Positions 39,698 through 53,761 of a stretch of DNA of 64,000 nt are shown piece after piece. The DNA is from Pempheris klunzingeri. Taxonomy: Eukaryota; Chordata; Actinopteri; Acropomatiformes; Pempheridae. The notes beneath the pieces were generated by a model. That model ran no database searches, was not told the DNA's origin, and saw only the letters and a program-made list of their open reading frames with translations. The translations under genes were made by a program, and so were the position numbers. The first letter of the stretch is position 1. Every line of letters begins with the position of its first letter. The stretch covers positions 3,245,908 to 3,309,907 of the forward strand of contig NC_092033.1 of NCBI RefSeq assembly GCF_042242105.1. Direction: 5' to 3'.

Positions 39698-40456
39698 TGT
39701 TCGGATTTAAGGCAAACCTGCAAGTTTCTATAGACTTTAAATTTCAACACACAGTTCTACAATGTTTTCAGAGCCAACTAAGCAGTATAGTGTATTCTAA
39801 TACTACTCAGTTCACTTTGATTAAATTGGACCGCTGTGTTTTGGCCCCTCACCTCTGGAAGTATCATCTTTATTTTTCTTCTTCTATTCATAACACTGCA
39901 TCTATGTAAAGTTGGAAGTTGGAAATTCACAAATTAGAGATCATTATTCTGACCTTTAGTGTATTTTAGTTTTAAAGCTACAAACTACAGTGTAGAATCC
40001 TGTTCCTTGTGCAACAGCCGATGTCATTATTGATTTTTTTTAAATGTGTAAATGCATATTTTTTACCATTTACTGCATTTACTTCATACATTTATGAGCC
40101 TGAAAAATATTTTCTTGAATATTTTGAGGAAGTGGGAGGATGCACATCCTCTGAGGAGCCGGGATAGAAGATATCTGACTCATGACATGGAGTCAGATAA
40201 TCACATCTCAGGATCAGCCTCAACCAGAGGGGATGTTCTGTCAGAGAGGAGTGTGAATTTCCAACTTTGCATTTTATCTTGAACGCAGCGTAGAGGTGTG
40301 GCTTGGTCTCTGTGAGTACTCTGCCCTGTTCTACTCTTAAACCTGCCAAATAAATCCTGACAGTGAGTTGGCTAAACCAGTTTAGACTGTAGAAAAATGC
40401 GAGAGTGATGGAGGTGTTCAGGTTGAGTCATAAGAGCTAACTGAACTATAAATAAA
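39698..40456 (+). terminator. rpap3: rpap3 3' UTR region with candidate poly(A) signals
   Basis: AATAAA hexamers occur at 40349-40354 and 40451-40456 on the plus strand. The region is AT-rich and has no other gene feature. Which signal is used, or whether one of them serves another transcript, cannot be told. Confidence 0.4.
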
Positions 40457-40812
40457 GGAGTATTTTGTAATTTGTGGGCTGTTGTGAAGTCATTACAGAT
40501 ACAGAATAGTTTATAACTCAGGACTGTAGTCTCAGGTGTGTCACATGGGTGATGGATTGGCACTGTGTGATCAAAGAAAGTATAGTAGGTCATTGTTTAT
40601 TAAGTATAATGGTGCATATTGTTTGGCAAGACAAATGGGAATACATCATGAAAGAAAATGAGATAAGCCTTGTGTAATTAACCACAAAATGTATTACTCA
40701 AAGACACAATCCATACGTCCTTTCTCTATACTTGTTTACTCTTGTTCAGAGTTACAAAGAGGTTGGAACCTGTCCCAGCATGCATTGTGTTAAAGCTAGG
40801 GAAACGCCCTAT

Positions 40813-41002
40813 TCAGGTCGCCAGTCCTTCACAGTCGGTACACAACGCTTGAGCAAATAAAGCCATACGTGTAGAAAATGCCAATAATAAAATGATTAAG
40901 AAACTACATCTTTGTGCTCCGCTGAGCGTTTGCAGATCAGGAGAATGTAGTTTGCACTGGACACAGTTCCTCCAGTGCCTCAACATCCACACCAGACAGG
41001 AT
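40813..41002 (-). other. Ambiguous terminal segment of CEACAM-like gene A
   Basis: After the last Ig exon (ends 41087, phase 1) the nearest good acceptor (CTGCAG|AT at 41002) gives only DPVWCGC before a TGA at 40980. A different frame of the same segment stays open to 40813 and contains the hydrophobic run CSFLIILLLAF, but no acceptor was found that enters it in the required phase. A GPI-type tail like that of gene B would be expected here. The cause could be a frameshift, an unseen exon, or a truly secreted product. Confidence 0.35.
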
Positions 41003-44000
41003 CTGCAGTGAGAGGCACAGAAGTAAGAGTTGGCACAGATACAAACTGAATGTCTAAACTCACTCAAACCTCCAACAGCAGCCTACCTGAGACACTCAGC
41101 GTCTCGTTGACTACCGCCGTCTTCCCAGTGAATGTGTTCTCAGCCTGGCAGCTAATGGCCTCTTCGGACACGTGGCGGTTCACAGTGATGTCGATCACGC
41201 TGCCCGTCATAGTCTGTCCGTACAGGGTCCACGTGAAGGTGCAGGAAGGCGTGCAGACAGCCGAGCACTTGAAGCTCGCTGCGACCCCGATTTCAAGAGC
41301 ATCTGGTCCTGAGATGGTTGCATCTGTTGGTCCGTCTGCAAGAGAAGAACCACAGATATAAGACAAAGGTGTTTTTGCTGAAGCAGACATGCAGTCACTC
41401 ATCGTATCATCTTACCAGGCACCACTACTGTCAACTCAGCTGTTTTCTTTTCCTTCGTCACAGAGTTAAAGGCCACGCAGGTGAGGATGGCCTCGTACGG
41501 AGGTGTTACAGCTGTGAAGAATATGGTGGCATTTGTAGCCAGGAGCTTGTCGAGGTAAAACCAGGTGATGGAGCAGACGGGGAAGCAGTCAGTCACACAC
41601 TGCAGCTCTGTTGTTGATCCAGGCTCAGTGATCATCTCCTCACCCACGGGCCCTTTGCCGGGTTTCACTATAAGCACCTCTTCAGGACCATCTGGGAGAT
41701 ATGAGACAGCTTTTTCTCAGTGCTCAGCTCTGACTGGATTGTCGGCACTTTCAGCTGCCAGAACCTTAAAAAAAATAGCTCAACATTTTGGGAAGAGTGA
41801 TACCAACCTCATACCTTAAAACATCACACAAACATTACTTGTTTTAAAGTGTACAATCTGATTTTGTAAGTGTTATGTGCTGGACTGATCTCTGGCCAGG
41901 AGCAGTGACTTCCTGGAGTCTAAGCTGACGACTTCATGGTGACAAAACTCCAGCAAGTGACTGCATCCGGCCACAAAGTACCAGTGGGAGGGGTTACCTG
42001 GGAGTGCAAGACGGTCTTTATAGGAAAAACAGACTGCTGTGGACTTCAGCACATGAGGTGACACGTTAGCTTTATTTTATGTCAGATGATATTTGCACTG
42101 GGTGTCAGCGGTCAGCAGATAGAAAGAAGATATTCTGTGTGTAATGTAAACTGCGTTTTATATTTGTGAGTCCACTTTTTGAGTATATTTGGATATCACT
42201 GCATAATGATTTTAATGAGTATATACTCACAGTTTACTTGCATCAGGTAGCCAATAGATATGATGGGAGTTCCAGCTTCGACTGCTGTTTCGTTGTTGAC
42301 TGTGTGGTTCCCACTTTCCAGCACCAAACACTGGAATAACCCTCCGTCCCCTTGGAAGAGGGGACTGAAGGTCACTGTGGTGTTTTCAGGGGAGAAAATC
42401 ACTCTTTCTGTTGGTAGTATTTGGCGTTTGTTCTTGAGCCATGTGATGGAGGCTGAGGCCTGAGGGCCGACACACTGCAGAGTGAAAGGCTTGTCTGCAA
42501 TCGGCAGGGCCTGAGAGGTGGGACGCACTGAGAACGGGTCTGTGCAGAGAGGATATTCAAAAGAATCAGTATATTGCATGTTTACTGTGGTCACAAGCCT
42601 CCTCACTATAACATATAACAAATACAAAATGTATTGACAAGCAGGCGGGAGCGCTATCACAGACTCACCAACAACAGTGAGGTTCTTAGTGGTGCTGATG
42701 GTGGCATGGGATGCAGTGTTCGTGGCCTCACAGGTCACAGGCTCAGTCTTGGAGTAGTCACTAACGGTGATCTCCAGCTCACTGGTGAACCTGGGTTTGG
42801 GAACCCCACGCAAGATGGGTATCTGGATTTTGCTGCCCTGGAAAGTCTTCCCCATGAACGTCCAGGTGAACAAACAGGACGGAGCACATTTGGCAGAGCA
42901 GGTGTACGTGTACTGTTCTCCCATCGCCACTGTGGTGTCACCAGTGATGGTAATGTCGGATAAACCTAAAGAAGAAAAACATTTAAATGTGTTGTGCTCA
43001 TTTTACAATAGGTGGATTTGCTGAGTTAATGTCATTCACAGATTCTCTGGTTGTATCTTTGAATGATACCCTAAATATTACTTAACATAGAAACATGGGT
43101 CTCTTCCAGATGATGTAACAATGCTCTATGTTTGTGTGTGATCAATAGTTTTAATTTGTGTCTGAGGAATCATGTTCTGTCTATAATTTCAGCATGGTGG
43201 ACGGATCCACTACAATACCCATGAGTCTTAGTCACCGTTACCCTCGAGAAGAGGCCTATCAGAGGTACAAATCAGAGTGGCAGCAAATTATAGTCATTAT
43301 AGTTGCTGAAATCACCTGTAATTATATGATATATAATATTAAAAAACATATATATAATTTAAAAAAAACAACAATGAATCTTGGTGATTTATTTTTCTTC
43401 CCAGAATGCACCTTGGGAGTCGTAGTTCTTGTCACAGGCTGGTACCTCTGACTTTTTATCAAAGAACCAGATATTTTCTAAAGTTCTTAATCTTATGTGC
43501 TGATGACTGATGAAGTTATTTTTGCTTCATGGAAATGAGGAGCGTCTGAAATAGCTCCTGTTAATTCTCACTTAAAGGTGATTTCTTTCACGTACTTGCC
43601 ACCAACAGTCTCAGAGTCTTGGAGATGAAGAGGTGTGAGACGGTGTCCTCAGCCTCACACATCAGAGTCTCAGCGGTGACGGTGCTACCAGGCGGTGTGA
43701 TTGAGATGGTGTTGCCTTTTGCGGTGCTGAACGTCTGCCCCTCCAAGACAACAGTCCAGGTGTAGCTGCAGGAGGGGTAGCAGTCCGCTGAGCAGGTGTA
43801 GTTGGATGCAGCACCGGTGGTCAGAAAGGCTGGACCGCTGATGTGTATATTAGATGGCCCCGCTGAGGAGTTGGAAATAGACTCAGTTAAAGGAATTACT
43901 CTTTAAAAAAAAACACAAGCTCAGATTGAAATGGTCGTTATTATGACCTGTCATTTGCAGGGTCTTGTGGGTGGTGACTGATACTCCTGTCGCAGGATTG

Positions 44001-44435
44001 ACTGCCGTGCAGGTCAGAGTTTGTGTTGGCTGCAGTTCCCCAAGCTTCAAGCTCAGCTCTGGGCCCACAGAGGTCACATTATCCCTGGTCCAGGTGAACT
44101 GGCATGCTGGGTAGCAGCTGGCTGAGCACTGGAAATGATACAGTACTCCCACAGTCACTATGTCAGCCCCACTGATCATCGCTGAAGACGGCCCGTCTGT
44201 GGTCGGAGGTAGAGCACATGGATAGACCTCTTTAAAATGCCAGTCATTTACTATATAAGTTATATGTATTGAACTAATATGGAAAAGTGAATGAAAACTA
44301 TTAATTACATGTGGAATGCACCTAAATTTACCGCGGACAAGGAGCTCGAGCGAGTGTGGCAGGTCAATAGATAGAGTGGGACTCAGCTCTGAATTAGTAG
44401 ACATTCATTGAAAGCTCAAAGAGACTACAGAGGTA

Positions 44436-44505
<70 letters not shown>

Positions 44506-47369
44506 AGAAACACAACCTCAGAGCTAGCAAGTAGCACCAGAGGACTCAGGGACACCAGTGTCTCTGGTCGATGCCACTTCGGTAGGTGAAAATGTACTAC
44601 TGTGTAACAGATTCACACTAACTGTCCACATCTTGAACATGTTGGACACCGCTCACAGCATACTCACAGTTTATTTGCATCTTGTAGCCGGCAGACTGGA
44701 TGGGGGTCCCCCCCTCCGACACCACACATTGATATAAACCGTCATCTGTCTGCATTAGGGGACTGAAGGTCAGCGTGATGTTGTCAGGGGAGAAGTACAC
44801 CCTGTCAGATGCTGGTACTGGGTGTTTGTTCTTGAGCCAGGTAATGGAGACTGGGTCCTGAGGGCCAACACACTCCAGACTGAAAATCCCACCAGCCAGT
44901 GGCAGGGCCTGAGAGGCGGGACGCACTGAGTAAGGGTCTGTGCAGAGAGGACAGTGAAAATACCCAAACGTGAACATGAAAGACATGATGGGATTAGTTT
45001 CATGCACTTGATACCAGTTTTTTGAATTCAGAAATGAGCAGAGAGCGACAGCGCAGACTGACCGATGACGGTGAGGTTCTTGGTGGCGCTGAGGGTGGCA
45101 TGGGATGCAGGGTTTGTTGCCTCACAGGTCAGAGGCTCAACTTTGGTGTAGTCACTAAAAGTGATGTGCAGATGACTGGCAAACTTTGGCTCTTCCCCCT
45201 GATGCAGGATGGGTATCTGGACTTCGTCACCCTTGAAAGTCTTCCCCATGTACTTCCAATTAAAGGTGCAGGGCGGGATGCATGAGACAAAGCACATGAA
45301 CGTGTACTGTTTTCCCATCGTCACTGTATTCTCCCCACTGATGCTGATGTCATTTACACCTAAAGGAGTTTGACATGAAGAAGCTTGAATGCAGTGTGCA
45401 ATTACAGGATCGTAGCATAGTGAATTTCCCTTCTTAGTCCAGGAATCTCTTGAGTGAGCTGTTTTAAAGACATCCTAAAATCTGACTTGGAATCCTGGTA
45501 CCAACCCGTAGTGGCCGAGATATCATCACATTTCACTACAGGGAGCTTCTGGGTGACTTTTGAAGCAATCTTACATTTGTGGTGGGACAGTAGATCCTCA
45601 GGATGTAATCAGAAGTGCTCACATGATATATTAAAACCTCAAATAAACACTGATAAACTACATAAATGCCACTAATTGTCTACAATAATATGACATGTAT
45701 CTATTTAATTTATTTCTGACTTGAAGTAGATGGCATGACACCATAGATGTTTTAATAATATCATCATCCATCCATGGATGACAACAAGCAGGAATCAAGC
45801 TGGTGAGGTGAACTGAACTTTTCATTTGTAAGAGGAGGACTGTGTTATTTCTGCACTCAAATCTTTATAAATCTAGACACACATCTAAACAATGTAATAT
45901 GCAATTAAACCAGTTACAGAGATGGAATTTGTATTTCTTCATGTATAATGTATCTCATCATGCATGACCAAACTGTAAGCACACATATCTCTCACACTGG
46001 ATTCCCAATGTGGCTGATTAATTCATGTTTGTGGCTTTTCCTTAAACGTACTGATTGCTATTTTTCACGAGAGGAGTGAGGAGTTACTTCACATACTTGC
46101 CACCCACAGGAACAGAGTGGTGGAGATGAAGAGGTGTGAGACGGTGTCCTCAGCCTCACAGATCAGACTCTCAGAGGCCACAGTACTGGTAGGCGGAGTG
46201 ACTGAGATGATGTTGCCTTTTGCGGTGCTGAACTTCTCCCTCTCCAAGACAACAGTCCAGGTGTAGCTGCAGGAGGGGTAGCAGTCCGCTGAGCAGGTGT
46301 AGTTGGATGCAGCGCCGGTGGTCAGAAAGGCTGGACCGCTGATCTGCACGTTGGAAGGCCCGGCTGCAAAGTTTAGATTTGGGTTTAGAAGTGCTGCTGA
46401 GGGAACACATGAATTCAAATTCACTGGTCGTTCATACCCGTCACTTGCAGCGTCTTATGGATAGAGAGGGACTTCCCCGTTGCAGGGTTGACCACTGTGC
46501 AGGTCAGGGTTTGTGTTGGCCTCACGTGCAGGATCTGCAGGCTCAGCTCAGGCCCCTGAGACGTCACATTACCCCTGGTCCAGCTGTACTCACAGTCTGG
46601 GTAGCAGTTAGACAAGCACTGGAAGCCATATGGGACTCCCACGGACACCACGTCAACCCCAGTGATCAACGCAGCGGTTGGTCCGTCTGCAGGATGAAGC
46701 AGAACAGATGAAACTTCAAAATGTTTTCCAATTAAAAAGAATATTTTAAATGAGGAAATCAAAGTCTATGAACGATGACTAAGACATCCAGCACAGTGTG
46801 AGAAAGACAGTTAGCTTTAATTCAGTTTTTTAACATTTGAAAACAGTGAGAATCAGAATCAAAAGGATCTTACATGGGTTTACCACTGCCCTTCCACCCT
46901 GCTCACTTTCACTGGCAGAAAAACCTTTGATATGAGAAAAAGAGAATTAGCTTTAACATTATTAATGTTCTGACAAGGCAAGTTTATTATATGGCATCAT
47001 TCAGAAACAAGGCAATCCAAAGTGCTTTACAGGGAAATGACAACACATTTAAAATGCATGTAAAAGACATTAAGAGCACAAAGCGAAGATAAGTAAATAA
47101 GTGGCTAAAAGTTGAAAAGAAATTACATTTAAAAGACAATCAGAAACAAACAAAACAGCAAGTGGATCAATAGTTACAGATTAGAGGAAAGTTATGTATG
47201 AAATTGCAGCAGAAATGCAGCAGATGAGCGATCAGGCCATCTGGAGCAGGTCTGGTGTATTTCTTCAGTCTAATAGAATAATTTAAGTGATGATGCAGGG
47301 CAGCCTCTTACCTGGCAGGCAGGTAAGCAGCAGCAGCAGCAGCAGCTGGCAAGCGGTGTGATGAACCAT
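40980..47369 (-). CDS. CEACAM-like protein with ten tandem Ig domains (gene A), 13 exons
   Basis: Exons in coding order: 47369-47312 (signal peptide, six-Leu core), 46924-46874 (17-aa linker), then Ig exons 46686-46438, 46363-46097, 45359-45063, 44937-44668, 44196-43948, 43862-43596, 42965-42669, 42539-42231, 41691-41416, 41335-41087, and a doubtful tail 41002-40980. Every junction is phase 1, typical of Ig exon shuffling. The model gives about 953 aa. Several domains open with YGP/AGP and read like CEACAM A/B-type domains (VSITWLKNKHPV, NPATG); no V-type N domain was seen. Eight domains carry C-x3-C-x-P-x-C-x3-W; exons 44937 and 42539 lack it. Exons 3-6 and 7-10 are a duplicated module. A cell-surface or secreted adhesion or recognition role is inferred from family resemblance only. 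Family name is moderately sure; exon structure is strong except at the C-terminus. Confidence 0.82.
41764..42064 (-). repeat. Dispersed teleost repeat, family R2, copy 4 (reverse, internally shortened)
   Basis: Between gene A exons 10 and 11. The minus strand reads 'GGTTGGTATCACTCTTCCCA' then 'AAATGTTGAGCTATTTTTT', the R2 tail phrase. Further along lies 'TTTGTGGCCGGATGCAGTCA', 'CTTGCTGGAGTTTTGTCACC' and 'GTCGTCAGCTTAGACTCCAG', familiar partners of this repeat in fish. A 63-codon open frame within it is not a gene. Confidence 0.5.
42966..43595 (-). other. Gene A intron 8, carrying a MITE-like insertion
   Basis: No coding exon was found in this intron. Its middle (43209-43426) has imperfect inverted ends; see the separate entry. 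An AT-rich patch (43320-43375) lies within it. Confidence 0.6.
43209..43426. mobile_element. MITE-like element with imperfect inverted ends
   Basis: The left end reads ACTACAATACCCATGAG. The right end, read on the minus strand, is ACTACGACTCCCAAGGTG. Both resemble the ACTACAACTCCCA-type termini of small non-autonomous fish DNA transposons. The length is about 218 bp with an AT-rich interior. No clear target-site duplication was made out. Confidence 0.4.
44435..44503. repeat. Compound (TG)n(AT)n microsatellite
   Basis: About eight TG units pass directly into about 26 AT units, in the intron between gene A exons 6 and 7. Confidence 0.97.
45360..46096 (-). other. Gene A intron 4
   Basis: About 740 bp of AT-rich sequence. 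Read on the gene strand, no Ig-type exon, decayed or intact, was recognised in it. Confidence 0.55.
46978..47200. repeat. SINE-like dispersed repeat in gene A intron 1
   Basis: Starts 'GGCAAGTTTATTATATGGCA' and continues 'GGCAATCCAAAGTGCTTTAC', a very common phrase of fish interspersed repeats. It is followed by an A-rich body with AAAAGACAATCAGAAAC. No ORF is present. Confidence 0.6.
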
Positions 47370-47405
47370 AGTGCTGTGGACAGTGAGAACCACTAACGAC
47401 ACACA

Positions 47406-47413
47406 CTCTTATA
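47406..47413 (-). promoter_or_regulatory. Possible TATA box of gene A
   Basis: The minus strand reads TATAAGAG, 36 bases upstream of the ATG at 47369. If it is used, the leader would be very short. Gene B has no comparable motif in the same place. Confidence 0.3.
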
Positions 47414-48286
47414 ATGCATATGGAGAAGGCCTTGCCCACTGTTATCGTTCACTCATACAAAACACAGACAACAAATGACCCAATGTTCTTGGCAAAGGAG
47501 TGCAACACGTCGTCGGTTATCAGCTGGGTTTATTCTCTGCAGAGGGTGTGCATACGTGTTCTGTGGTTTTGTCTTCTGTGGGTTGTGGTTGTTTCCTTTG
47601 TGTCTGCAGAGTTAATCCAGGTCAGATAATGTGGCTCCTTCTCGCTCTGTTTTTTTCATATCTGCCTGTGGTAGCAGATAGAATACAACTCCAGCTGTCT
47701 GCAAGATCTGATACGTGTTGCTATTTTCTTTGTGGTTCGGTTAATGTACCTTTTACCTTTTATGTATGTTGTCGCGGTGGGAAGTCAAAGCTGCACTACC
47801 TGTGATTTTGACGTATCAACAGTGTTCGTACAGTCTTGAACATCTGGGAAATGCTTTATTGTGACCGTTATGTTTTCAGTTTTAGGTGTATGCTTGAATT
47901 TGAATATATACTCAATGAAAAGTGCTTGATTTTCAACATAATCTGGTGTTTCATGCACACAATCACTCGTGTAAAGCAAGAATCTTTTAAGACTTAAAGT
48001 CATATTTGTTTGCAGTGTCCTGACGTCTTGCACCAGATAATAATCCTGATCACGACGTGCAATCAAAGTTATTATAAACAGCTGGTGAAATAAAAAGTAT
48101 ACACTGATTGTGGGTATTAATGAATTCTGCAAACTATTTTTTCACAATTAAATTTAAAGCAACAATCTAGATGTGATGACAAAGGCTTCAAGAATCTGGA
48201 AATGTTTAGTTTTTTTTTTTTTTTTTATCATTTTCTGTTGAAACAGGATTTTAAGACATATATGGAGAAATTATGCAAATTTTGCA

Positions 48287-48325
48287 AGTTTGGTCTCCAC
48301 CAACTCCTGAGAGAAAATATCTCAC
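48287..48325 (+). repeat. R1 fragment
   Basis: 'TTTGGTCTCCACCAACTCCT' followed by 'GAGAGAAAATATCT' matches the R1 head seen at 14066. Confidence 0.55.
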
Positions 48326-49119
48326 AGGATTATCAAAACATGATGGTTTCATGCATTAGATTCTTTTTGTGATGAGGCAGCTACCAAAGATTTGTTTTCT
48401 AGTGAAATACAGAACATTTCGGGTTATAAGTCGCCAAATATGCAAATAAGAATCTGTTAAGATTAACTTTTATTCAGATACTATTTTTAGGAAATAGAAA
48501 CTATTTGTTGTTGTTGTTATGAGTACTTATATTGTTCCTGTTCTTATTCTTATTGTTCTTATTTCTTACTTTTTTACTGTACATAGAGAGACTGACTACT
48601 AGAGATGATGACTGCCCATTGAAAGTCCATTTCCACGGACATGACGTGTGGTGTAGGCGGGGCAGAGCAGGGATTTCTTTACCTGCCACACAGTCTTTGT
48701 AGTGTCCTCATGTTTACCAGCTGTGTTTAATGAGGAGACCATTAAAGAGGGCTCGAGCTGTCTGCCAGTAATGGTTTGGTTACTGTCGCATCACATCCCC
48801 TTCAAAAGTAGTGCCGGAGATGCAGGTGTAAGTTAAACCAGAGGATTAAATCTCAGGTGTCCTTTTTAAAACCACAGCAAAAAGGAATACATGCCACAGT
48901 GAAGCACTTCTCATAAAGTATTTGTCAGGGGACTGATATGAACCCTGGGTGTGCCCTTTAAATACAAGATTACATCAAACATGTACCTGAAGTGTGAGGA
49001 AAACTGAACCGAGCTTCTATATGAGGAAGAAAGTGAAATATGTAGGATTGTGAAGAGGGTTATTTTCCACGCTCATAGTCGACTCTTTTTTGTATGAGTC
49101 ATGGGGATCTCGCCACTTC

Positions 49120-49430
49120 TCATGTATTAAAATACATCCATCCATTATCTACACCGCTTAACCTTCAGGGCTCCAGGAGCTGGAGCCAATCCCAGCTGAC
49201 TTCAGGCGAGAGGCGGAGTTCACCCTGGACTGGTCATCAGCCAAGTCACGCTCACACCTGCGGGTGATTTAGAGTCACCAACCAACCGAACCTGCATGTC
49301 TTTGGATTGTGGAGAAATCCCACATGCAAACTCCACTCAGAGAGACCACAGGTCCAAACCTGGATTTGAATTTGGAGCCTTCTTGCTGTGAGGCAGGTGT
49401 TAACCACCACACCACCATGCTGCCCTGTTG
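49120..49430 (+). repeat. Common fish interspersed repeat (transposon-derived)
   Basis: Ordered phrases familiar from many fish genomes: 'ATCCATCCATTATCTACACC', 'GGAGCTGGAGCCAATCCCAG', 'GGCGAGAGGCGGAGTTCACC', 'TTTAGAGTCACCAACCAACC', 'CCTGCATGTCTTTGGATTGT', 'CATGCAAACTCCACTCAGAG', ending 'CACCACACCACCATGCTGCC'. It is internally decayed, with no coding capacity. Confidence 0.8.
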
Positions 49431-50321
49431 AAGTTCAGGCCATTGAAAATACAGATCTCAGCGGTGCATCATCACCATCCAACCTGCAGGGGGAGCCAAG
49501 AGTGAATCTATACCATCACACCACTTTGATATCCTCACAAAGGAGCCTGTCTGGTTTAAATCCATTATGCACACCTTTTTTATCGCACTTTGTGGAGAGG
49601 AACTAACCACAGATTTATGATTTGCATTAGTTCATTGGGTTTATTTACCTTTGGTATATTCAAGCATCACCCCACCCAGAAACAACCTGAGGAGAAGTCT
49701 GACTGAAAACACCTGCCTGGGTGTTAATAATGAAACCACTTCTGACATACTAGATTTATTTACGGTTTCTTTGCATGTATGAGGTGATGTGTTTTGTATA
49801 TATTTAGAGTCCTGTCAAGTCATCAGTCCATTTTATTCATGTTTTAACATTATAACATTACATATGTATCAAAGATGAGGAATCTTCCAAATGTCCTCCT
49901 GTGGGAAAAACATTTTGTGAGCACATTTGCCCCCCCACCCTCCCCACATGATACTCCAGTGCTCCTCCATGTCTGTTACACAAAAGTGCAAACAGGGTTC
50001 AGCCCACTGTCAACACGTGACAAATGGAAAAGAATAATGTGTAGCGTGAGATCACAGGCACATGAGTCACTGATTCTCTGTAATCCAACAGGCTTTCTTC
50101 ATCACAGATTCACTCTCAGGACGTAGAAAGATCTGACAGAGGGACAAAGACGGGGAGACAAAGTTAGTTTTATGATGAAAAGATCAGGGTGTACCTGCTG
50201 TTACGGCTAAAATAACTGAAGAAATATGATAAAACAAACTACAAGTGAAGTAAAACCCATGACATTAAGAGTAGAATTTAAAGAGCAGCCTAATGCTACA
50301 GTAAGTAAGCCTCGCCTGGGA

Positions 50322-52912
50322 TCACAGTGTGAAGGCAGCACAAATGATGAAGGCCAGCAGCAGCACGGCTGAAGTCTCTTCAGGACGAGTGGACGGGTTG
50401 CGATCTGACCCTGAATGCCGCAAAAGGAAGCAAATGCAGGTCAGATAACAGCAGAATGTGTTAATACGATGTCAGACCAGTTTACGGCACCTACCTGATA
50501 TGTGCACAGTCTTAAAGGCCGTGACTGTCTTCCTCGAAACTGTGTTTTGTGCCTCGCACTTGAGAGTGACAGATTTAAGCGGATGGTCCACTGTCATCTC
50601 GATCACATTGCCCCTCACGGTCTGATTCTCCACAGACGACACAAAGCGACAAGAAGGGTGACATGCAGCGGTGCACACAAACTTATTCTTTTTTGCAATT
50701 TCTACTTCATCCGGGCCTTCGATCTGGACATCTGATGGGCCGGCTGAAGACAGACAGTGAGGATTAATATAAATAAGTTTACTGGAAAGGTGTTGGCCAC
50801 AGGTTAGAGATCTTTAACAAGCAACTCTGGTGAAACCTGACTCACATATCACAGATATGGTGCGAGTAGCATCGACAAACAGCCCAGATACAGGATTGGT
50901 TGCTTTGCAGATGAGGATTTTAGAGTTGTCCGTCTCCTGAGGAATGATAGAAACAACATTCCCCTGACCACTAATCCACGGGCCTTTATCTATCCTCCAT
51001 GTGTAGGTACAAGGTGGCCGACAATAAGCGTGGCAGCTGCAGGTGTGGCTCGCTGCTGGACTCATCAAATCAGGGCCTGTGATGGAAATGTTGGCCGGTC
51101 CAGCTAAGACAAGAAACATAAATGTCTGAGTCATTTGAAGGGAAAGCGCATATAATTCTAACAATATCTGCTCTAAAAACAAACAAAACAGCTGTCACTT
51201 TACCTAACACTTGCAGTTGCTTTGTTGCGGTGGCACTCAGCTGTTTATCATCACCTGCGACTGTGCAGGTGACTGTTAAGGCCTCCAACCAACTGTTGAC
51301 AGTGAAGGCCAGCACATTGCCCTGACCCTGGGCACTCTGTCCATCCAGTGACATAGAATAGGTGCATTTAGTGCAGTTGGAAATACACTCAATGCTGCTC
51401 GGCACGCCCACAGTTACGTAATCCGGACCGACAATCACGCACTCGATTTTCAGTCCTTCTGAAATTTTCAGCAGTCACAGTTCAGTTCAGCAAGCATACA
51501 GAGATATCACAGTGAAGTCTGTAGTCTCTATAATGATACAGATGGCACCTTTAATGCAGGTTTCATTGTTTATTTGAATGTGAAATCACTTACTGCTATC
51601 ACCGTCACCCGGTTCATGGTTTTCACCGTCTGTAGACAGTACAGGGTCTACACAGCCAATGAAAACATGTATCAGAAACAGTATCTGGTATGAAGCATTA
51701 CAGTTTGTGATCAGCCTTGGAAATACTGTGTTTACTGAACAACCCCAATTCAAGTCCTGCTTTTTTGAAAGCTTTCAATTCTGGGCCTTGAGTTGGGATT
51801 GTTTAATGAAAAACTACTATTTACAAGGTCAAGAATGAACTCTGCTGCTTTATTTTTAAGCTAATACAGGTTTAAGTTAACAAATCCATGTCCATAACAA
51901 CTGGACAACTTCTGTCTGCTGATGAAGTCAAAATCTATTAAGTAGGATGTCAAAAATCTAATAAATGGACATTTATATTGATTTATTTGATCAAATATGT
52001 TCTACTGAATAATCCAGCGAAGGTGGAAGAAGTTTCACATCCTTCAGTGTTACTTAAGCCAGGCTAAGTAGCTTTTAGCTTGGATTTATATAACGCCATG
52101 ACGCTTATTTATTGTATCATATATTTATGTAGTTTCGATTATGGCAGTTTTGGTCCTCCATAATATAATATAATATAATATAATGTAATGTAATGTAATG
52201 TAATATAATATAATATAATATAATATAATATAATATAATATAATATAATATAATGTAATATAATATAATATAATATAATATAGCAGTAAGTATTAGTCTT
52301 GTCACACCAATGTAAAAATACCATGTGAAAACGCAGCATTCAAATACTTCCTTAAGTGGCAACCATCATGTATGATGTCCCTTGTGATTTTGTAGTATAA
52401 ATTATATTATTTGACTTATTATTATTATATGATTTATTAAATAGCAGTTTACTGTTGTTGCTGGTTGAGGGGGAGCTAAGTGTAACTCCTTTATATAGTT
52501 TTATGTGGTTTAATCTAAAGCAGTGCTTCTTATTTTAATAAAATGTGTGTAAAACCTTCATCTGCAAAGTAACGAGCAGCTATAATGCTCAAATAATATG
52601 GAGTATATATAATATATGGAGGCATAAAGTAACTTCAAATGGAAAAAACGTAAGAAAAGTACAAATAGTTCATGAGCTATCACATTTATAACAGGTGCTA
52701 TAGACACAGTAAGTGAGTGTGAGTAGTAAAAACACAGTAAAGTCAGTGTGGCGACTCTCACACACTAAATTACAACTAAAATCTGACTCCACCACTGGTA
52801 TTTTTGTCCAAAGGAAAATCCTTGTTTTACCTGTCAGAAACAGAAGCAGCAACAAAAGTCTGCCGAGATTTGAGTGTCCTCCGTTTTGTTTAGATATGTA
52901 GGTATTATCCAT
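50322..52912 (-). CDS. CEACAM-like protein with three Ig domains and GPI-type tail (gene B), 6 exons
   Basis: Exons in coding order: 52912-52831 (N-terminus with hydrophobic run LLLLLLFLTG), 51647-51594 (18-aa acidic linker), Ig exons 51458-51204, 51103-50846, 50743-50495, and tail 50410-50322 (TGA). The model gives 328 aa, all phase-1 junctions, with the same plan as gene A. The tail reads SDRNPSTRPEETS followed by AVLLLAFIICAAFTL and a stop, with no cytoplasmic charges. This is the form of a GPI-anchor signal, so a GPI-linked surface protein is inferred. Domain 2 keeps C-x3-C-x-P-x-C-x3-W (CHAYCRPPCTYTW). Domain 1 (CISNCTKCTYSM) and domain 3 (CTAACHPSCRFVSS) have lost the Trp. The N-terminal run is preceded by about 17 polar residues, so a later Met or an uncleaved form is possible. 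Same strand as gene A, about 3 kb apart. Confidence 0.78.
51648..52830 (-). other. Gene B intron 1
   Basis: About 1.2 kb between the signal and linker exons. AT-rich, with a pentanucleotide array at 52161-52282. No further exon was recognised. Confidence 0.55.
52161..52282. repeat. (TAATA)n pentanucleotide array with TAATG variants
   Basis: About 24 tandem five-base units, mostly TAATA, with a block of TAATG units near 52181-52205 and another at 52250. The period is regular throughout. Confidence 0.95.
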
Positions 52913-53761
52913 TGTCCCATGAGAAGTGTACAGCCACCAGGATACAGACAACTGGCACTGCAGCAAGTCAGTCAACATCAGCAGGCAAACAGCTCTTATC
53001 AGGGAGAGCTGAGAAGAAGCATATCTACCTCCTTAGTCACTCAAATGTAAAATCCACATTGGCTATAAAAAGATTCGAACCCGTGTGACTTTCTGCAGAT
53101 TTTGTATATATTTACGTGAGTCATCTTTCCTGATGAGATGAGTGTGTGGAGAAGTTGGATGTTGAAAGAGTGGAGCATTACAGAGCAGCTGCGCTCCCTT
53201 CTTTGGGCTTCTGGCTTGAAGGTAGTTTATAGAGAGTGTTTTGGAGACTGTTAGGACGCTGTAGTGGTTTGGAGGCTGTCCCAAGCAGGGAAATGCCACA
53301 GGTCAGATTACTCTTAAAGGGAATATGTCACAAATAAGTAGGGTTTTATATCAGAAAATGCATGTATATGACAAAATGTACCATAATGCAGATACACCTA
53401 TTCAGAAATCTAAACATTATCCCTTTGTCTTGGCTCTGTGTGTCACTAACGTCATTACATGAGCTTAAATTGTTTGTGTGACCTGCAGTCATTAATATGA
53501 TGAGTGTGACAACATTATTCACTGCTGCATTCCCAGCATTCACCTTGATACTGTACAATAGGTGACCTCGCCCTTAGCTCCAGGGAAATGCGTCTATTAT
53601 CAGAATAAATGATCAAAATGCAAACAGAGAAGAAAAAAAAAACTACCTGCTTAATGGATAGACTGATTTCAAGGGAGCAGTTGCAGTTTGCATGAATATA
53701 AACATGTTGTGTATCACACTAAAATGACAGCTGAGCCTCTTCACAGTTGAGCAAAATCACA
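52913..53761. other. Intergenic, no feature seen
   Basis: The stretch between gene B and mapk12 holds no exon, repeat family or microsatellite that could be supported. The upstream region of gene B should lie at its lower end. Confidence 0.5.

Follow-up and report, generated by a model that had tools for sequence, protein, structure and literature searches.

In domain 1 of VCAM-1, the ICAMs and MAdCAM, a second disulfide bond sits atop an I-set immunoglobulin (Ig) domain and connects a cysteine of the B-C loop with a cysteine of the F-G loop. The cysteine pair of the NILT domains is located after the tryptophan of the C strand. The B-C loop lies at the pole of an Ig domain which faces the preceding domain, and thiols that occur in pairs are as a rule oxidised in the secretory pathway. 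According to the available excerpts of PMC3022915, the teleost NILT proteins have Ig domains in which a CX3C cysteine pair is present in addition and may form a second disulfide. The excerpts of PMC4079198 describe two invariant cysteines for the IgC-like domain and at least one IgV-like domain as the criterion of the CEACAM family; CEACAM loci are marked by ATP1A3, GRIK5, PAFAH1B3, CNFN and others (excerpts of PMC8274849 and PMC3628338). The B-C loop spans both sheets (PMC12051499, in excerpt). A description of a B-C cysteine pair in CEACAM-type domains was not found in the literature searched, as represented by excerpts of PMC8274849, PMC3628338, PMC4079198, PMC13278318, PMC3022915, PMC3031540, PMC3664923 and PMC12051499; the main texts of PMC8274849, PMC3628338 and PMC13278318 do not contain the word cysteine.

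The window, i.e. the whole 64-kb stretch of DNA analysed here, contains a large gene on the minus strand which is predicted to encode a ten-Ig-domain CEACAM-like protein with a presumably extracellular role. The gene model extends from 47369 to about 40980 and comprises a predicted signal-peptide exon and ten Ig exons, which are of phase 1-1 and have consensus splice sites:

47312..47369, minus strand: predicted signal-peptide exon, MVHHTACQLLLLLLLTCLP, phase-1 donor
46438..46686, minus strand: Ig exon 3, motif CLSNCYPDCEYSW at 46580-46618
46097..46363, minus strand: Ig exon 4, motif CSADCYPSCSYTW at 46257-46295
45063..45359, minus strand: Ig exon 5, motif CFVSCIPPCTFNW at 45256-45294
44668..44937, minus strand: Ig exon 6, CEACAM A-like C2 domain (by inspection) without the extra cysteines; Pfam Ig_3, E 7.5e-9
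43948..44196, minus strand: Ig exon 7, motif CSASCYPACQFTW at 44090-44128
43596..43862, minus strand: Ig exon 8, motif CSADCYPSCSYTW at 43756-43794
42669..42965, minus strand: Ig exon 9, motif CSAKCAPSCLFTW at 42862-42900
42231..42539, minus strand: Ig exon 10, CEACAM A-like C2 domain (by inspection) without the extra cysteines
41416..41691, minus strand: Ig exon 11, motif CVTDCFPVCSITW at 41561-41599
41087..41335, minus strand: Ig exon 12, motif CSAVCTPSCTFTW at 41229-41267
40980..41002, minus strand: possible terminal coding exon (low confidence), DPVWCGC followed by a stop, pyrimidine-rich acceptor

The most pyrimidine-rich acceptor near the end of the gene leads to this short tail and, if the low-confidence terminal exon is used, the protein would be secreted; with an alternative acceptor at 41045, the tail would be hydrophobic. 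The gene models of the window did not reveal a cytoplasmic tail.

A six-frame scan of the window for the motif C-x3-C-x-P-x-C-x3-W gave nine exact C...C.P.C...W matches, eight of which, all on the minus strand, are those listed above. The initial annotation had placed the motif in exons 3, 4, 5, 7, 8, 9, 11 and 12 and had noted its absence from exons 6 and 10, which is borne out by the scan. The ninth match lies outside the range covered there and belongs to a second, smaller gene. This gene is located upstream in the direction of transcription, runs from 52912 to 50322 on the minus strand, and has three Ig exons, all of which carry the cysteine pair:

52831..52912, minus strand: predicted signal-peptide exon
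51204..51458, minus strand: Ig exon, shortened variant CISNCTKCTYSM, C-x3-C-x2-C-x3-M
50846..51103, minus strand: Ig exon, ninth exact motif CHAYCRPPCTYTW at 50997-51035
50495..50743, minus strand: Ig exon, CTAACHPSCRFVS, cysteine pair kept, core tryptophan lost
50322..50410, minus strand: terminal exon, GPI-anchor-like tail GSDRNPSTRPEETSAVLLLAFIICAAFTL followed by a stop, judged by eye and hydropathy only

In this gene (50322-52912), which is of the same lineage and possibly GPI-anchored, two of the three domains are without the C-strand tryptophan and yet have the extra cysteine pair. Block shuffling of the window (2-mer blocks) yielded a C...C.P.C...W match in none of 100 cases, which rules out a chance origin of the motif.

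The initial annotation described two additional cysteines and a proline between the B-strand cysteine and the C-strand tryptophan. The proline is an ordinary residue at canonical spacing: both the proline and the 13-residue spacing from B-strand cysteine to C-strand tryptophan are seen in two LRIG-type I-set exons of the same window, and human CEA has the same proline and spacing (CHAASNPPAQYSW). Since both are canonical, the two cysteines replace residues and nothing was inserted; the idea of an inserted motif is thereby ruled out. As read from the sequences, the motif is a CEACAM-B-like domain's loop in which cysteine has replaced Ser5 and Ala9; Pro7 and the spacing are inherited, and only these two residues are changed.

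The class of the domains was assessed by a profile search of the PDB, with a query profile built from the eleven window domains that carry the cysteine pair. The best match was human CEA (1e07_A, E 2.3e-24), followed by a DSCAM chain and then by CEACAM1 (4.6e-10) and other I-set proteins; with these matches to human CEA and CEACAM1, the domains are assigned to the C2 domains of the CEACAM kind. The loop of the human CEA B-type C2 domain, C-HAA-S-N-P-P-A-QYS-W, is in the same register, such that C5 falls on Ser and C9 on Ala or Pro. Among the matches listed by phmmer for one domain and two 35-residue pieces (3, 5 and 5), there was no PDB chain with the cysteine pair, and those listed in one of these searches were chance matches to armadillo repeats; in the profile search, 1084 sequences matched, of which 60 were listed and 5 compared residue by residue, so that a chain with the pair could escape. 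With Pfam, exon 11 is the only one of the eight motif exons to score above the curated cut-off (I-set, 27.0 vs 23.7), five are below it, and exons 4 and 8 gave no match; of the two non-motif exons, exon 6 passes the cut-off and exon 10 does not.

In none of the ten large-gene exons was a V-set match above the cut-off obtained with Pfam, and there is no Ig-like reading between the predicted leader exon and exon 3. A scan with an Ig signature, which recovered its single control (exon 6) and is so narrow that a degenerate V domain could escape, gave 0 matches in 46687-50345, 51459-53500 and 39700-41086; the one minus-strand open reading frame tried between the two genes had no Pfam match. The window also contains an Ig gene with an I-set match, which we take to be LRIG-like; the neighbours identified within the 64 kb are a Peptidase_M76 gene and RPAP3, and the locus looks different from that of CEACAM. 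Because no IgV domain was found and the locus looks different, we name the gene CEACAM-like and not CEACAM.

The size of the genome (646 Mb), together with the gene order and the CEACAM-like make-up, suggests that it belongs to a fish. In order to find relatives, this genome was searched with protein queries. Among the genome matches read, which include one (L008) of the fourteen C3 rows of one search, Cys-pair domains occur at two loci, namely the window and C8:18924890-18926539. Ordinary B-type domains are encoded elsewhere in the genome (C8, C16, C3, C7), for example CSAESTPAATYTW and CSAASIPPANFTW. Rows from outside the window were kept if they contained C.{5}P.{5}W or a Cys-pair loop and had at least 70 residues; due to this selection, the proline and the tryptophan are present in 17/17 comparison rows by construction. 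In these 17 ordinary B-type rows, some of which are near-copies, position 5 is Ser in 14 and Ala in 3 cases, and position 9 is Ala (11), Ser (3), Cys (1), Gln (1) or Pro (1). Altogether, 30 domains were tabulated: 13 have both cysteines, 16 have neither, and one has C9 only. The Cys-pair group (n = 13, median identity 29%) consists of the 11 window domains and two domains of L041 picked by their cysteines; its rows are related and the 13/13 occurrence of the pair holds by definition, so that neither this count nor its Fisher p is a test.

The CEACAM-like cluster of C8 contains, at L041:6890-8539, two Cys-pair domains and between them a stretch which by eye is A-like; in L041:8222-8539 the loop is two residues longer (CLPSCTLNVECTVKW). 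Two further CEACAM B-like domains have a single extra cysteine: L042:6570-6905 has C9 alone (CSADSRPNCVFHW), and L057 (C8:18882143-18882352), which is outside the table and the tree, has C5 alone (CTADCFPPANFSW). These are possibly half-steps or half-losses. The occurrence of each cysteine alone in the ordinary C8 cluster argues against a strict coupling of the two or suggests a stepwise origin. The domains of the window are, by sequence comparison, CEACAM-B-like C2 domains with two substitutions, that is, a variant within a CEACAM-like lineage; given this class and the presence of Cys-pair domains at two loci among the matches read, the designation as an undescribed Ig-domain subclass, which had been proposed initially, is too strong.

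A duplication of a four-domain block seems to underlie exons 3-6 and 7-10; the exon-by-exon identities are 63, 83, 59 and 63%. Where the two copies of this block meet, the intron separating exon 6 from exon 7 contains a long TG/TA simple repeat (about 44436-44503). The dS value of exons 4 and 8 is 0.18, far below the values of the other three duplicated pairs (0.78, 0.52 and 0.55), which suggests that exons 4 (46097-46363) and 8 (43596-43862) were later homogenised by exon-level gene conversion. On a tree computed after removal of the loop columns, 12 of the 13 Cys-pair domains group together with a support of 91/82, which is below the mark of 95; exon 11 is placed outside this group on a long branch. 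The Cys-pair trait requires 2 changes on the tree, compared with 10.0 in shuffles. The duplicated block and the tree rule out an independent origin of the eight copies. A single trait change was not obtained in any of 200 bootstrap trees (2-3 in the 5-95% range), yet a single Cys-pair clade is not rejected (AU p 0.254); a single origin of the pair is therefore possible, no more.

Apart from exons 6 and 10, all Ig exons of the two genes, 11 in number, keep both cysteines, whereas the proline is found in 10/11 and the tryptophan in 9/11. There are four cysteines in every one of the eight motif exons of the large gene, two each in exons 6 and 10, and five each in two domains of the small gene. 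The extra cysteines are separated by 2 (51204-51458), 3 or 5 (L041:8222-8539) residues; despite this variation, their registers are constant at B-Cys+4 and Trp-4. Exons 3/7 and 5/9 have kept the pair while neighbouring residues changed, and at the codons of the extra cysteines one and two synonymous TGC/TGT exchanges, respectively, are seen; in exons 4 and 8 the motif codons are identical. The cysteine pair is a real, repeated and retained trait, for which a disulfide is the likely reading.

Our main reading, to which we give a probability of roughly 60%, is a disulfide bond between C5 and C9 which would staple the B-C loop of these CEACAM-like B-type domains. At residues 5 and 9, where ordinary B-type domains mostly have Ser and Ala, the eight B-like C2 domains have acquired a cysteine pair, and C5 would bond C9 of the same domain in addition to the canonical B-F disulfide. 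The bond would fix the loop at the N-terminal pole, where it passes from sheet to sheet. In a tandem array this pole faces the preceding domain, and the staple would make the junction stiffer and shield a long rod, either secreted or at the surface. On balance, a bond inside the loop is favoured by the even cysteine counts, the constant registers and the retention of the pair between duplicates. Counting against it, each cysteine is found alone in a relative (C9 in L042, C5 in L057), and an extended loop between the sheets might place residues 5 and 9 too far apart to bond. The initial annotation had offered either an added disulfide or a metal- or ligand-binding knuckle in the B-C region; the former fits best the even counts in the large gene, the synonymous codon changes, the constant registers and the pair in 11/11 B-like exons, and the latter lacks a matching column of ligands.

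It is unlikely that the extra cysteines pair between domains or chains instead, linking neighbouring domains covalently or forming oligomers. A B-C loop which crosses the sheets at the pole facing the preceding domain would be well placed for such bonds, the cysteine counts of two small-gene domains are odd (5 and 5), the possible large-gene tail DPVWCGC adds two cysteines, and relatives with one cysteine alone exist. However, the count is even within every single motif domain of the large gene, and each extra cysteine keeps the register to its own strand while the loop length varies. The odd counts in the small gene and the cysteines of the tail leave room for bonds between domains or chains in addition to the staple within the loop.

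We consider it quite unlikely that the cysteines are a mere lineage marker without a structural role, spread by tandem duplication and exon gene conversion. The probable single duplication of exons 3-6 and 7-10, the conversion suggested by the low dS of exons 4 and 8, and the single-cysteine relatives would agree with such a history, but exons 3/7 and 5/9 keep the pair with synonymous codon changes while their neighbours change, and 11/11 B-like window exons keep both cysteines although the tryptophan was lost in two. A metal- or ligand-binding knuckle is most improbable: C-x-P-x-C is similar to a short chelating loop and recurs along the array, but there are two cysteines per site, no His, Asp or Glu column reaches 10/13 among the Cys-pair domains, and on a protein with a predicted signal peptide the paired thiols would be expected to oxidise; for want of a further conserved ligand column, the knuckle was dropped as a main reading.

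Should the intra-loop bond be real, these genes would offer a natural case of a CEACAM-type domain with its B-C loop closed by a second disulfide, which two domains of the window retain despite the loss of the core tryptophan, and would point to a way, open to testing, in which long Ig rods become stiff; the wider effect would be modest. The pair can moreover serve as a marker to trace one fish CEACAM-like lineage. A broader scenario, which we regard as doubtful, is a fish-specific family of CEACAM descent in which the V domain disappeared and which came to lie next to RPAP3; B domains with two bridges each would form a rigid, protease-resistant rod, secreted or GPI-anchored (e.g. a mucus or decoy protein), and the B-C staple would define a recognisable C2 subclass.

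Compared with known systems, the putative bond shares with the second disulfide of VCAM-1, ICAM and MAdCAM the involvement of the B-C loop. In contrast to these, no cysteine follows the F-strand cysteine within any of the 13 window domains, which rules out a BC-FG disulfide of that type. The NILT domains are V-type and are found on receptors with ITIMs (excerpts of PMC3022915), whereas the domains described here are C2; a NILT membership is ruled out, as the best profile match is C2, no V-set match above the cut-off was obtained and no cytoplasmic tail was found. Zebrafish CEACAMz1, according to the excerpts of PMC8274849, is likewise a large extracellular multi-Ig protein with one phase-1 exon per domain; it is GPI-anchored, as the product of the small gene may be. 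It differs in having an N-terminal V-like domain followed by ten alternating A/B domains and in its atp1a3/grik5 locus, as against RPAP3 as neighbour here. Closest are the B-type Ig-C2 domains of CEACAM (human CEA/CEACAM5, 1e07; CEACAM1, 9gh5), which are likewise short C2 domains with the B-strand cysteine, Pro7 and Trp13 in the same register; A-like domains, by inspection, are part of the array here too (exons 6 and 10). Unlike in CEACAM, the domain order of the large gene is not an alternation of A and B and no N-terminal IgV domain was found, and cysteines here occupy positions 5 and 9, which in the human B domains compared are Ser and Ala or Pro, respectively. The gene is probably related to CEACAM, and its feature is a new variation on a familiar fold, not a new kind of domain.
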